Assembly (NCBI RefSeq): GCF_020622345.1
Contig: NZ_JACNMO010000001.1
Coordinates: forward strand, 186,001 to 250,000
Reading direction: 5' to 3'
DNA: 64,000 nt
Source: Roseobacter weihaiensis
GTDB lineage: Bacteria; Pseudomonadota; Alphaproteobacteria; Rhodobacterales; Rhodobacteraceae
Positions 5,095 to 9,980 of this stretch are shown here, one piece after another. Within the stretch, counting starts at the first letter, position 1. Each line of letters starts with the position of its first letter. The notes below the pieces were generated by a model that had not been told where the DNA came from, did no database searches, and was given only the letters and a program-made list of their open reading frames with translations. The position numbers were made by a program, and so were the translations under genes.

Positions 5095-5745
5095 CTACCC
5101 GTCAAAGCTGTAGGCAAAGCGCGCGATATCCGCCGCGCAGACGTCAGCAATAATCGCAGAGGTCTCGGCATCATAGTAGGTACCATACTCCTGCGTGCGG
5201 GCGGAGGCGTTTACGTGCGGCAGGGTGACGGCAAAACCGAGGTGGTCAAAAAGCGGGGCCGCATCCTGCGTGAAATGCTCAAGGCGGATGTAGGCGTCGC
5301 ACTGCTCGTGCCCAAGCGCATCGGTCATATAACGCCGGGCCGGCGTCTCAGCAAAGGCCTTCTGGATGGACGGCTCTCTCAGGAACGGCGCAAAAGCGCG
5401 GGTTTTGGCAAGACCGACGGCCGGATGCGCAAAGCTCTGTGCTCTGAGCCAGTGGTAGTAGCTGACCGCCCGGTCCCAAGGGTTCCGCACCAGCGTGAAG
5501 GTAAAGAACGCCGCCACCTCCTCCGGGCTCAGCAAGCCGTCAATATCCGCCAGGGTCGCATGTTTCCAAAGCCGCCCCGCCGTCTTGATGCCCCGCAGAC
5601 GGCGCTTGCGGCGGCGCGCCTTGGGCGTGTCGCCAATCAACAGATCATCCCGCATGGCCCGTTCCTCGAGCGCCTGTGCGAGCGATGTTCCCCCGGTTTT
5701 CGGGATGTGAACAAAGATGTAGTTGCGGCCTTTGGATACGATCAC
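5095..5745 (-). CDS. Sulfotransferase family protein (Sulfotransfer_2 type)
   Basis: About 216 residues from a GTG at 5745 that has a GGGGGAG site at the right distance. The frame is open further upstream, but that part is Cys-rich and unlike the family. The PAPS-binding 5'-phosphosulfate loop is plain near the N-terminus (FVHIPKTGGTSL), and the 3'-phosphate motif follows as LVRNPWDRAVSYYHW. Such enzymes move sulfate from PAPS to a sugar, lipid or small molecule. Roseobacters often carry several, usually linked to surface polysaccharides. No polysaccharide genes are nearby, so the acceptor is unknown. The gene is divergent from the acyl-CoA ligase at 5878. Confidence 0.8.
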   Translation of the reverse strand: MIVSKGRNYIFVHIPKTGGTSLAQALEERAMRDDLLIGDTPKARRRKRRLRGIKTAGRLWKHATLADIDGLLSPEEVAAFFTFTLVRNPWDRAVSYYHWLRAQSFAHPAVGLAKTRAFAPFLREPSIQKAFAETPARRYMTDALGHEQCDAYIRLEHFTQDAAPLFDHLGFAVTLPHVNASARTQEYGTYYDAETSAIIADVCAADIARFAYSFDG

Positions 5746-5877
5746 CGCATAGTCTCCCCCCAGTCCCTTCGACACGGTTCCAATTGTCTTACAATTCGCT
5801 TTGCAAATCTGACAAATGCAATATCTTACTAGCCGCAGCGCGAAGAGGGCGCAAAGGGATACGGGGGGAGTGAACCA

Positions 5878-7503
5878 ATGGGCTGGATGAGCGATGAAAC
5901 CGGGCTGGACAAATGCGCCGCAAACCATGTGCCGCTAACGCCGTTGTCGCATTTGCAGCGCGCCGCAGAGGTGTTTGCAAACTACACCGCCGTTGTCTAC
6001 GGCCCCCACAGACAAAACTATAAAGCCTTTTACGCGCAATGCTCGCGACTGGCCTCAGCACTCGCCGCACAGGGCATCAGGCCCGGAGACGTGGTGGCCA
6101 CCCTGCTGCCGAACATCCCCGCACAGGTCGAGGCGCATTTCGGGGTACCGGCCTGCGGGGCGGTCTTGAATACCATCAACACCCGGCTCGACGTGGATAC
6201 CGTCCACTACATTCTGGCGCATGGAGAGGCAAAGCACGTACTGGTCGATCCGCAGTTTCTGGATCTGGCAGAGGCAGCCTGCGCCGGATTGGCCAGGCCC
6301 CCGACCCTCGTCGAAGTCTCCGATGAGGTGGCCGGGGTGATGGCCTCCGGGCGGCATCTGACATACGATGCGCTGCTTGCAACGGGTGATCCGGGGTTTG
6401 AATGGATCATGCCCGAAGATGAGTGGGAAAGCCTTGCACTGAACTACACCTCCGGGACCACGGGGCGGCCCAAGGGGGTCGTCTATCACCACCGCGGCGC
6501 CTATCTGATGACGATGGGCACGGTCATCAGCTGGCGTATGGTCCTGCACCCGACGTTCATGCAGATTGTGCCGCTCTTTCACTGCAATGGCTGGAACCAC
6601 GCCTGGATGATGCCCTTGATCGGCGGCACGTTGGTGTGCTGTCGCGATATCACGGCGGCCGCCATCTATGACGCCATCGCCGAGGAAAACGTGACCCACT
6701 TCGGCGGGGCTCCCATTGTTCTGAACATGGTCGTCAATGCGCCCGAAAAAGAGCGGCGCGCATTCGATCATGTGGTGGAGATCTTTACCGCAGGCGCGCC
6801 CCCTGCGCCCGCGACCCTCTCCAAGATCGAAGCGCTGGGTTTCAACGTGACACAGGTCTACGGTCTGACGGAGACCTACGGGCATGTCACCGAATGCCTC
6901 TGGCGCGCCTCGGACTGGCATGCACTGGACAGCGCTGCACGCGCCGCCATCAAAGCGCGGCAGGGCGTGCCCTTTCCCATGATGGAAGAGATCACCGTCA
7001 TGGATGAGGCGTTGCGCAAGGTCCCCCGCGACGCCAAGAGCCAGGGCGAAATCATGGTGCGCGGCAATTCGGTCATGAAAGGCTATTACAAGAACCCGGA
7101 AGCCACGCAGGAGGCTTTTGCCGGTGGGTATTTCCATTCAGGCGACATCGCGGTGCAACATACAGATGGCTACATCCAGATCGCAGATCGGGCCAAGGAC
7201 ATCATCATTTCGGGGGGCGAGAATATCTCCTCCGTCGAGGTCGAAGGCGTGTTGATGGCGCATGATGACGTGATGCTGGCCGCCGTGGTGGCCAAACCCG
7301 ATGATAAATGGGGCGAGGTGCCCTGCGCCTTTGTCGAGCTGAAACCGGATGCGACCGTCGATGCCGCCGGGCTGATTGCCCACGCCAGGCAGACGTTGGC
7401 AGGTTTCAAGACACCCAAGCAGGTCGTTTTTCAGGAACTGCCCAAGACGTCGACCGGCAAGATCCAAAAGTTCGAACTGCGCAAGCTGGCCGCAAGCCTG
7501 TAG
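5878..7503 (+). CDS. Acyl-CoA synthetase (AMP-forming, FadD/DmdB-like)
   Basis: A 541-residue member of the ANL adenylating superfamily. The phosphate-binding motif YTSGTTGRPKG begins at Tyr190, followed by the YGLTETYG adenine-binding motif, the hinge region DRAKDIIISGGENIS, and the C-terminal catalytic lysine in KTSTGKIQKF. It activates a carboxylic acid to its acyl-CoA via acyl-AMP. The overall form matches medium/long-chain ligases and also the 3-methylmercaptopropionate ligases (DmdB) of marine roseobacters; motifs alone cannot decide between them. Start ATG 5878 follows a GGGGGGAG site. No other DMSP genes are in the window, which argues for the cautious name. Confidence 0.9.
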   Translation: MGWMSDETGLDKCAANHVPLTPLSHLQRAAEVFANYTAVVYGPHRQNYKAFYAQCSRLASALAAQGIRPGDVVATLLPNIPAQVEAHFGVPACGAVLNTINTRLDVDTVHYILAHGEAKHVLVDPQFLDLAEAACAGLARPPTLVEVSDEVAGVMASGRHLTYDALLATGDPGFEWIMPEDEWESLALNYTSGTTGRPKGVVYHHRGAYLMTMGTVISWRMVLHPTFMQIVPLFHCNGWNHAWMMPLIGGTLVCCRDITAAAIYDAIAEENVTHFGGAPIVLNMVVNAPEKERRAFDHVVEIFTAGAPPAPATLSKIEALGFNVTQVYGLTETYGHVTECLWRASDWHALDSAARAAIKARQGVPFPMMEEITVMDEALRKVPRDAKSQGEIMVRGNSVMKGYYKNPEATQEAFAGGYFHSGDIAVQHTDGYIQIADRAKDIIISGGENISSVEVEGVLMAHDDVMLAAVVAKPDDKWGEVPCAFVELKPDATVDAAGLIAHARQTLAGFKTPKQVVFQELPKTSTGKIQKFELRKLAASL

Positions 7504-7580: not shown

Positions 7581-8594
7581 ATGACGGCCCTGAAAAAATA
7601 CGCGCGTCTTGAAGCCAGCGCCTTGTGGCGGGCCTCGCCCGATGACCAGCGGCGCGAGGTGATCGTCTCGATCGGGGACGCTACCCTGATCGTTTCGGAC
7701 ATGCGCGATCAGGCCATTACACATTGGTCCCTGGCAGCGGTGCAACGCGCCAATCCGGGCACGCGCCCTGCGATTTTCCATCCCGAAGGCGACCCCGGCG
7801 AGACGCTGGAGCTGGCCCCCGAGGAAGCGCAGATGATCGACGCCATCGAGAAATTGCGGCGGGCGGTGGAACGCGCCCGCCCGCGCCCCGGCAGGCTGCG
7901 ATGGCTGGGCATGCTGGCCTCGGTGCTGGTCGTTGCGGCCCTTGTCATCTTTTGGCTTCCGGGCGCGCTTTTGACCCACACGGTGTCCGTGGTGCCGGTT
8001 GTCAAACGCGCCGAGATCGGGGCGGCGCTCCTGCTGCGCATCGAACGCATTACCGGCCCGTCCTGCGCGGATGTTGCGGGGGTACGCGCGCTGCAACAAC
8101 TGCGGGCGCGGCTTGGCAGCGGGCCGATCCATATCGTGCCGGGGACAATCTCGACCAGCCTGCACCTGCCCGGTGGCGTCATCCTGCTCGACAAGGCCCT
8201 GGTCGAGGATTTCGAAGAACCGGATGTTGCCGCGGGTTTTGTGCTGGCCGAGCAGACGCTGGCCACCTCCGCTGACCCGCTGCGGGATCTGCTTGAAACG
8301 ATGGGACCGGCGGCGAGCTTTCATCTGCTGACCACAGGGCGTCTGAAAGGCGAAACGCTGGATCGGTATGCAGAAGTCCTGCTGACGCAGGAGCGCCTGC
8401 CACCGGCTGTGGGTCCCCTGTTGACCGCATTTGCCGAGCGCGAGGTGCGCAGCACCCCCTACGCCTATGCCCGCGACGTCACCGGCGAAACCGTCCTGAC
8501 GCTGATCGAGGCCGATCCAATGGCAGGCCGACCCCCGGTGCCGCTGCTGAGCGATGCGGACTGGCTGCGATTGCAAAGCATATGTGGCGGCTGA
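7581..8594 (+). CDS. Membrane-anchored protein resembling a catalytically dead M48 peptidase
   Basis: A 337-residue protein of no firm family. A basic N-terminal cytoplasmic region (1-107) is followed by one clear membrane helix at about 108-131 and a C-terminal domain. Residues 192-227 (LHLPGGVILLDKALVED, then AAGFVLAEQTL) follow the layout of M48 zinc peptidases, where ALPGGxIxVxxGLL precedes the HExxH helix. Both zinc histidines are replaced (Ala223 and Leu227) while the glutamate (Glu224) remains. I infer a pseudopeptidase or a chance resemblance. It is 77 bases after the acyl-CoA ligase and may be co-transcribed. It is convergent with the next gene. Confidence 0.6.
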   Translation: MTALKKYARLEASALWRASPDDQRREVIVSIGDATLIVSDMRDQAITHWSLAAVQRANPGTRPAIFHPEGDPGETLELAPEEAQMIDAIEKLRRAVERARPRPGRLRWLGMLASVLVVAALVIFWLPGALLTHTVSVVPVVKRAEIGAALLLRIERITGPSCADVAGVRALQQLRARLGSGPIHIVPGTISTSLHLPGGVILLDKALVEDFEEPDVAAGFVLAEQTLATSADPLRDLLETMGPAASFHLLTTGRLKGETLDRYAEVLLTQERLPPAVGPLLTAFAEREVRSTPYAYARDVTGETVLTLIEADPMAGRPPVPLLSDADWLRLQSICGG

Positions 8595-8610: not shown

Positions 8611-9255
8611 TCAGTCGATCAACCGGCGGGGCACCGTGTTTGTCCAGATACGGCGCATCTCAGCGTGCCCGGCCAGCGTCTGTTCTGCGCGGCGCAGGTT
8701 GAGCCGGTCGTCCTGCCATGCGGCGCGATATCCTTTGGGTGTTTTAACCGGGCGGACGGCCTTGCGCTGCTCATAGACGTGCTTCGGCAAAACCCGGGCC
8801 TGGGGTGAAACACCCTTTGCCGCTGCATTTGACGGGGTGACAACCAGCCCGGCCACGGCAGTTGGCGGCGCTTTGGCTTGCGTGCGCGCCACTGAAGCAG
8901 GTCGCATGACCACGGGATCTGCACGCGGGGGCTGGGGTTGCGGCACGGTCAGCACCTGCACCTCCGGCGCGGGCGGTTGGGTTGCCACGGGGGCATTGGC
9001 CGTTGTTGGAAAGCTCGGCTGGAAGCCGCAGACCTGCTGGCGGTCTCGTGTCACCCGAGGCACCCAGGTGACGGTCCCTCCCACCCCTGCGCGGATGAAA
9101 GCGCAGCCGGTGCTGTCGACATATTGCGGTCCGTCAAACGAGGCCGGGGGCAGTTCGGCCGGTGTCATCAGCGTTTGCTGTGCCCAGCTGGCCGAGTTGA
9201 CCCCCGTAAGGGAAAGTGACAGGGCAATACCAGCGATCACATTGGTCTTTTTCAT
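8611..9255 (-). CDS. Exported hypothetical protein, Pro/Ala-rich
   Basis: 214 residues starting at the ATG complementary to 9253-9255, with GGGGA just upstream. MKKTN and a hydrophobic stretch ending SWAQQ form a signal peptide. The mature part opens with a short conserved-looking block (YVDSTGCAFIRAG, then WVPRVTRDRQQVCG) that I recall from Rhodobacteraceae envelope proteins carrying SPOR domains. After it comes a low-complexity Pro/Ala/Val linker and a basic C-terminus (VLPKHVYEQRKAV, then GYRAAWQDDRLN). Two cysteines flank the conserved block and may form a disulfide in the periplasm. Function unknown; a role at the peptidoglycan is a guess from the resemblance. Confidence 0.7.
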   Translation of the reverse strand: MKKTNVIAGIALSLSLTGVNSASWAQQTLMTPAELPPASFDGPQYVDSTGCAFIRAGVGGTVTWVPRVTRDRQQVCGFQPSFPTTANAPVATQPPAPEVQVLTVPQPQPPRADPVVMRPASVARTQAKAPPTAVAGLVVTPSNAAAKGVSPQARVLPKHVYEQRKAVRPVKTPKGYRAAWQDDRLNLRRAEQTLAGHAEMRRIWTNTVPRRLID

Positions 9256-9347
9256 AAATTCCCCGCTATATATCCCCCGACACTGCCCGAAACCAATCCC
9301 GCAGGCAAGCTGAACCAGACACCTAGCCCCCCGGACAGGCCGTCGGC

Positions 9348-9980
9348 TCACTTGGTGCCGAACATCCGGTCGCCCGCATCACCAAGCCCCGGCACGATGT
9401 AGCCAACCTCGTTGAGCTTGGTATCAACCGCAGCGGTGACAATCGGGACATCCGGGTGCGCTTCTTGCATCCGCGCGATCCCTTCGGGCGCGGCCAGCAG
9501 GCAGAGGAACCGTATATTGGTGGCCCCTGCCCCTTTCAGCAGATCAATGGCCGCAACCGAGGAATTGCCCGTCGCCAGCATCGGATCGACGGCAATCACC
9601 AGACGATCTTCGAGCGCTTCGGGCACCTTGAAATAGTACTGGACCGGTTGCAGAGTCTCTTCGTCCCGGTAGAGCCCGACAAAGCCGACCCGCGCCGACG
9701 GGATCAGTTCCAGCACCCCGTCAAGCAACCCGTTGCCCGCCCGCAGGATCGAGATCAGCGCAAGCTTTTTGCCGTCCAGTGTCGGGGCGTCCATCGGCTC
9801 CATCGGGGTGTCGATCTTTTTGGTGGTCATCGGCAGGCCCCGCGTCACCTCATAGGCCAGCAATTGACTGATCTCGCGCAGCAGCTGCCGGAAGACCGCC
9901 GTGGGCGTCTCCCGGTCGCGCATGATCGTCAGTTTGTGCTGCACCAACGGGTGATCAACGACGGTCAGATGGTCAGACAT
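9348..9980 (-). CDS. upp: Uracil phosphoribosyltransferase
   Basis: 210 residues, standard length. It makes UMP from uracil and PRPP. The PRPP-binding loop is [11 protein letters not shown] (from about residue 131), and the family motif [11 protein letters not shown] lies at 78-88. The C-terminal [12 protein letters not shown] matches the uracil-binding flexible end. The ATG has AAGGAAG upstream. It lies 71 bases after deoB in the same direction, so uracil released by nucleoside breakdown through cdd-deoA can be reused directly. Confidence 0.96.

Follow-up and report, generated by a model that had tools for sequence, protein, structure and literature searches.

The gene at positions 7581 to 8594 of the window (the whole 64,000-nucleotide stretch of Roseobacter weihaiensis DNA that was analyzed) encodes a protein that resembles an M48 peptidase without its zinc-binding histidines. 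It raises the question of how such a protein came to stand at this locus and what it may do there.

Domain architecture and predicted fold

The features of the locus, in window coordinates, are as follows.

5095-5928, minus strand: gene of the Sulfotransferase family, divergent to the ligase gene and matched in 66 of 80 loci
5878-7503, plus strand: acyl-CoA ligase gene (AMP-binding; NCBIfam PRK08162 type), 77 bp upstream of the gene under study (Pfam, NCBIfam, synteny)
7581-8594, plus strand: whole gene, 337 amino acids, with PH-like domain, transmembrane (TM) helix, and dead M48 domain (ORF, translation, full-length relatives, selection)
7608-7886, plus strand: N-terminal PH-like domain, residues 10 to 102 (seven predicted strands and a helix; PH-fold matches; DUF7092 counterpart)
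7890-7991, plus strand: long helix, residues 104 to 137, with a likely TM segment at about residues 107 to 131 (model; hydrophobic stretch)
7992-8591, plus strand: dead M48-fold domain, residues 138 to 337, predicted to be periplasmic (Z scores with 3c37 and BepA; hhalign)
8064-8066, plus strand: Cys162, a likely disulfide partner, present in 180 of 180 sequences
8247-8261, plus strand: former HExxH motif, now A223 E224 Q225 T226 L227 (alignments)
8514-8519, plus strand: former HP plug, now D312-P313, with His replaced by Asp and Pro kept (alignment; plug role from PMC7950410)
8583-8585, plus strand: Cys335, a likely disulfide partner in the tail W-x-x-L-x-x-I-C, present in 177 of 180 sequences
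8611-9351, minus strand: convergent downstream ORF without a Pfam match (ORF list, Pfam)

The reading frame is uninterrupted, and its full length is conserved among relatives. A Pfam search with the window protein retrieved no family above the cutoff, DUF7092 included, and searches of NCBIfam and of PDB sequences with the protein or the core alignment returned nothing significant, the M48 peptidase 3c37 appearing only at an E value of 1.3. Descent from M48 was therefore assessed by profile comparison and fold. (i) The AlphaFold model, based on 81 sequences, had a pLDDT of 90.8 and a pTM of 0.66, the latter a middling value that makes the relative placing of the predicted domains uncertain. The top PDB match of this predicted structure was 3c37 (Foldseek E value, 7e-6), which aligned with residues 129 to 337 at a Z score of 15.2, and the Escherichia coli BepA structures 6ait and 6sar reached Z scores of 13.5 and 12.6, respectively. 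(ii) A full-length hhalign comparison, in which a profile of 81 relatives was set against one of three HExxH proteins, gave a probability of 99.2% and an E value of 2.8e-19 over 315 columns. (iii) Sequence intermediates between the active and the dead motifs were found, namely, HEIGH, HAMGH, HELAH, and HALAQ. Fold (model) and sequence homology (hhalign) both indicate M48 homology by descent. The original prediction, a likely dead peptidase of the M48 type that is anchored in the membrane, is thus borne out by fold, profile, and phylogeny, the comparison of a predicted structure with M48 folds having been set beforehand as the check.

The assignment of the N-terminal domain as PH-like is a fold match of a predicted structure, for which middling Z values are common; its matches (PH, PTB, EVH1, and Ran-binding domains) had Z scores of at most 9.7 and ranked after the M48 structures. 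Pfam detected DUF7092 (PF23368) in four of five HExxH relatives scanned, L253 being the exception, and did not detect it in the HAMGH form L252 or in two dead relatives. Seven K/R residues occur in residues 80 to 106, making the N-terminal side of the TM stretch the more basic one; given this basic stretch and the periplasmic location of BepA-like relatives, the side of the PH-like domain is taken as cytoplasmic. Both the active and the dead forms have Cys162 and Cys335, a finding suggestive of a periplasmic disulfide between them.

Loss of the zinc site and distribution in the family

According to PMC7950410, BepA binds zinc, with the plug residue H246 acting as a ligand next to H136, H140, and E201. 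In our alignments, A223 and L227 stand at the places of H136 and H140, the stretch of E201 is deleted, and D312 is found at the plug position; in contrast to BepA, the window protein is without zinc ligands and lacks HExxH, the third-ligand Glu on the next helix, and the plug His of HPx4R. The predicted loss of the zinc histidines at Ala223 and Leu227 was therefore confirmed (the HExxH column reads A223-E224-Q-T-L227) and extends to all four M48 ligands. As no zinc ligand is left, the window protein should be inactive as a zinc peptidase.

We then inspected these positions in 180 nonredundant sequences, obtained from 209 matching frames after removal of those that were identical, contained in others, or shorter than 230 amino acids. 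Thirteen loci (L031 to L035, L050 to L054, and L186 to L188) had been left out before this stage, and the sample is uneven, since 80 loci were picked for their likeness to the window. H-E-H was present in 43 of the 180 sequences, all of which had the third-ligand Glu and 42 of which had the plug His; relatives that keep HExxH, the other check proposed at the outset, thus exist. None of the four ligands was found in 131 of the 137 non-HEH sequences, so that only six retained any. The third-ligand column was empty in 134 of the 137, the window protein among them, and the plug His was replaced by Asp in 116, with the next Pro retained in 129. The former catalytic Glu, which had been predicted to stay, is indeed kept in the window protein and in 106 non-HEH sequences, but it is absent from the other 31 and is thus not a fixed feature.

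The family profile matched 292 of the 295 genomes of the window's bacterial family (Rhodobacteraceae); three of these matches were weak, covered the M48 part only, and were counted as ordinary M48 genes. By profile, the dead form is present in 281 genomes, of which 202 have the dead form alone, 78 have dead and active forms, and one (G305) has HAMGH only. The active form alone was found in eight genomes (G026, G059, G096, G143, G204, G236, G254, and G317), which include G026 with a completeness of 82% and G254 with one of 62%, and neither form was found in six. In genomes that were not inspected individually, a form was classed as dead when a strong A1 or A2 match came without a match to the active-form profile (A3) at an E value of 1e-36, or when a strong match scored higher than every active form; additional checks were made where the sorting was unclear. 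The census was mostly made by profile score; direct reading of the motif covered the 180 sequences and 29 active-profile loci, all 29 of which contained HExxH, the third Glu, and HP. Among the 89 A3 matches, the motif was read in 39, with 38 cases of HExxH and one of HAMGH. HExxH relatives of the same architecture (DUF7092, TM, Peptidase_M48) occur in many other alphaproteobacterial families.

The window's own genome had no A3 match at an E value of 1e-36, other matches covering the M48 part only, and the four M48 proteins with HExxH that it encodes differ in architecture. It also contains a partial M48 match that covers only profile positions 119 to 185 (L035, 1501-1752; C28:5580-5831), located about 2 kb from an HtpX-like gene on the other strand and perhaps a truncated M48 remnant.

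The DUF898 partner gene and descent of the dead form

A gene for a DUF898 protein lies directly upstream, on the same strand, of 87 of the 89 A3 matches in the family. This number rises to 88 when the divergent DUF898 (Pfam E value, 5e-14) in the upstream slot of G317, a HELAH form, is included. The unpaired match, G305 (HAMGH, catalytic Glu lost), has an acyl-CoA ligase in that slot and no DUF898. The DUF898-M48 pairing was also present in seven outside loci read (L278 to L284), and a search of the window's genome for DUF898 gave no match. DUF898 nevertheless persists in some genomes whose only form is the dead one: twelve family genomes have a DUF898 gene but no A3 match, mostly of another, high-scoring group. 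Sixteen DUF898 copies are located apart from any A3 match; 13 of them belong to the high-scoring group (E value of 8e-87 or better), and the other three include one near a contig start.

Several further observations concern DUF898. In the congeneric genomes G014 (L291) and G009 (L292), a DUF898 of the high-scoring group stands apart from all M48 pairs that were identified. Two close same-strand DUF898-M48 pairs occur in each of G020 and G304, at L041 (3266-5577 and 8993-11399) and L276 (3916-8674). At L253 (2686-4545), the DUF898 protein next to the HELAH form has diverged strongly and bears a long Pro/Ala-rich N-terminal extension. As for published DUF898 proteins, PMC6753144 includes a 101-amino-acid Enterococcus protein among biofilm-screen hits, and PMC4562309 labels an integral membrane urate oxidase as DUF898.

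Descent was analyzed with a careful tree of 52 rows from which the catalytic columns were omitted. All dead forms of this tree, together with L166, formed one clade (support, 100/99), to which the intact HEIGH protein L162 was joined as sister at 100/99. Next outward were four intact proteins (L039, L163, L175, and L176), with only moderate support (92/93). The earliest branches within the clade were mixed and comprised HAMGH (L165), HELAH with the plug Asp (L166), and HALAQ (L040). Because L166, with its Asp plug, splits off later than L165, one must assume either a separate loss of the Glu in L165 or a small error in the tree. L166 hints at, but does not settle, an order of losses in which the plug went first and HExxH followed.

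The gene order at 53 wide loci was read in parallel. FadB is located upstream of three of the four intact proteins, as in many dead-form loci, and the order FadB-DUF898-M48 in L039, L268, and L270 compares with FadB-ligase-dead M48 in many loci. Given the tree and the upstream FadB in both cases, the dead gene looks like an in-place descendant of the DUF898/M48 pair of the FadB locus. Active pairs were found directly behind parC in twelve loci read (L271 to L277 and L286 to L290), and the ParC-locus pair looks like a second copy that some genomes have retained. In L042, an active DUF898-M48 copy is likewise directly behind parC, the gene for topoisomerase IV subunit A, so that this adjacency is a conserved one. 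We consider this evolutionary part of the case strong.

Constraint, comparison with known systems, and possible roles

The median dN/dS was 0.127 for 16 of the 19 congeneric copies, all 16 of which were open, with values of 0.072 for residues 1 to 105 and 0.156 for residues 136 to 255; these values are rough because dS is near saturation. Mean pairwise identities in the PH-like and M48-like domains were 0.28 and 0.49 for the active forms of the family (n = 13), 0.24 and 0.36 for the active forms of other families (n = 28), 0.34 and 0.22 for the divergent dead forms (n = 13), and 0.65 and 0.51 for the core dead forms (n = 117), in groups that differ in size and divergence. The PH-like domain was the more alike of the two in 0 of 78 pairs of active forms in the family and 13 of 378 in other families, versus 76 of 78 pairs of divergent and 6565 of 6786 pairs of core dead forms, the pairs inside a group not being independent. 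Eight rows (seven long-branch or short dead forms and one active fragment) were omitted from this comparison, and L166 was set apart. As judged from these identities, active forms are the more constrained in their peptidase domain and dead forms in their PH-like domain. The retained selection and the inversion of identity indicate that the protein kept a function, the center of which moved to the N-terminal side.

The window protein was compared with several known systems. (i) The DUF7092-M48 peptidases (PF23368 plus PF01435) share with the window protein the N-terminal domain, a single TM segment, the M48 fold, two conserved cysteines, and the W-x-x-L-x-x-I-C tail, and in three loci read (L039, L268, and L270) they are at the same FadB-linked locus. 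However, they keep HExxH, the third Glu, the HP plug, and an upstream DUF898, all of which the window protein lacks, and they are longer by about 40 residues. (ii) BepA and the Geobacter M48 peptidase 3c37 share the M48 fold with the C-terminal domain of the window protein, and neither is known to combine a PH-like domain with a TM anchor. BepA has a C-terminal TPR domain and is not known to carry a TM anchor, whereas in the model of the window protein the M48-like domain extends to the C terminus (residue 337) and a TM-length helix is present. (iii) HtpX has several TM helices around its M48 domain, whereas the model of the window protein has one TM-length helix, before the domain. LoiP has a lipoprotein signal, whereas the N terminus of the window protein consists of the PH-like domain and the TM helix, its first Cys being residue 162. 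(iv) Domains of the PH superfold, such as the PH domain of the ceramide transfer protein (4hhv), share the seven strands and the C-terminal helix (Z scores of at most 9.7), but the window domain has no sequence family match, the likeness being one of predicted fold. (v) Pseudoproteases are best known from eukaryotes, and iRhoms, which are inactive membrane homologs of proteases, are an example. As in pseudoproteases in general, a conserved dead active site is found here on a retained membrane protein; in contrast to iRhoms, the protease class is another one, and loss of catalysis went along with loss of the partner gene.

Pseudoproteases as such are known, and this one comes with an unusually clear series of intermediates; a literature search of limited coverage retrieved no paper on this dead M48 family or on the DUF898-M48 pair. 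The case is of interest because in most of a bacterial family a pseudoprotease has taken the place of its active ancestor, while intermediates survive and DUF898 provides a clear genetic correlate. It makes testable both the role of the DUF898-M48 pair and that of a PH-like domain on a dead protease in roseobacters, and it cautions that such genes should not be annotated as metallopeptidases.

We favor, as a fairly probable reading, that the window protein arose in place from the peptidase member of a DUF898/M48 gene pair and now serves as a membrane adaptor or sensor independent of proteolysis. It is probably an adaptor rather than an enzyme, a molecular role that we infer and at which we arrived by exclusion. 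Sequence, phylogeny, and predicted structure support the evolutionary part of this reading: the ancestor was a zinc peptidase anchored in the membrane (DUF7092/PH-like domain, TM helix, M48 domain), and its gene stood directly behind that of a DUF898 protein with multiple membrane passes. On the branch that gave rise to nearly all of the family's sampled genomes, the DUF898 gene, the plug His, the catalytic site, and the third ligand were lost, but purifying selection stayed on the protein and is now strongest on the PH-like domain. The resulting single-span adaptor or sensor may bind a partner, either a protein or a lipid head group, through its cytoplasmic PH-like domain, and its disulfide-closed periplasmic pseudo-M48 domain may be a fixed scaffold or binding surface. 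The scaffold role that had been proposed is plausible for this protein, with conservation pointing to the PH-like domain and not to the dead M48 domain. More tentatively, we propose a family-wide conversion of a protease into an adaptor through intermediates, in which DUF898, as an obligate membrane partner, was lost alongside the plug and the active site and selection moved from the periplasmic peptidase to the cytoplasmic PH-like domain. If true, nearly the whole bacterial family would have a new transmembrane adaptor or sensor, and DUF898-M48 would be an uncharacterized two-gene protease system with DUF898 as gate or substrate.

An unlikely alternative is that the protein works with the acyl-CoA ligase and FadB, tethering or sensing fatty acid activation or beta-oxidation at the membrane. 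The window-type ligase was found in 63 of the 80 named loci, 62 times upstream on the same strand and once downstream, and 200 bp or less separated it from the dead gene in 37 of the 62 upstream cases. A ligase, often of another type, is also found beside very divergent dead forms (L036, L037, L038, L040, L251, L254, L255, L257 to L259, and L261 to L266), and FadB is near many of the loci. However, the slot holds different ligase types: those upstream of the dead gene in L037, L038, and L040 are only 32 to 34% identical to that of the window, reflecting either gene replacement or a separate insertion. No window-type ligase was found in 17 of the 80 named loci, some of which are incomplete, and among the 53 wide loci read no ligase adjoined the dead gene in L044, L046, L256, and L260. 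In addition, FadB is near active and dead loci alike and adjoins active pairs too, so that the ligase may simply belong to a fad locus. A fatty acid locus thus surrounds the gene, and a functional link to the ligase is possible. Judged by gene order, the ligase is a frequent but dispensable neighbor that mostly fills the former DUF898 slot. The link to the adjacent ligase raised in the original prediction therefore stands as a frequent same-strand association and weakens where another ligase type, or none, was found. A supposed gene cluster, c13, was rejected, since tblastn identified its members as antisense shadow ORFs of the ligase.

It is improbable that the protein is a pseudopeptidase regulator, binding an active M48 peptidase (a paralog or one of the HtpX, BepA, or LoiP type) or its substrates and thereby controlling proteolysis. 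The dead protein and an intact pair occur together, by profile, in the 78 genomes with both forms, where a relation between the two is possible, and the window's genome offers its four HExxH M48 proteins, which differ in architecture, as potential partners. The protease-dead variant E137Q of BepA is strongly dominant negative (PMC7950410), which makes effects of dead M48 proteins plausible by analogy. On the other hand, the M48-like domain is less constrained than the PH-like domain, and neither the window's genome nor, by profile, any of the 202 genomes with the dead form alone has the nearest active paralog. As the window's genome contains neither DUF898 nor an intact paralog of the same architecture, regulation of an active paralog, which had been suggested for this protein, was rejected as its role here.

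That other residues keep a hydrolytic or metal site, for example E224 with D312, is very improbable: D312 is invariant in the core sequences (81 of 81) and E224 is present in at least 90% of them, but few non-HEH sequences keep any ligand and E224 is missing from 31 of the 137. Finally, a decaying gene without function is hardly credible: the catalytic residues are lost and divergence is high in some genera, but the 16 translated congeneric copies are open with a dN/dS of about 0.13, and the dead form is present, by profile, in 281 of the 295 genomes.
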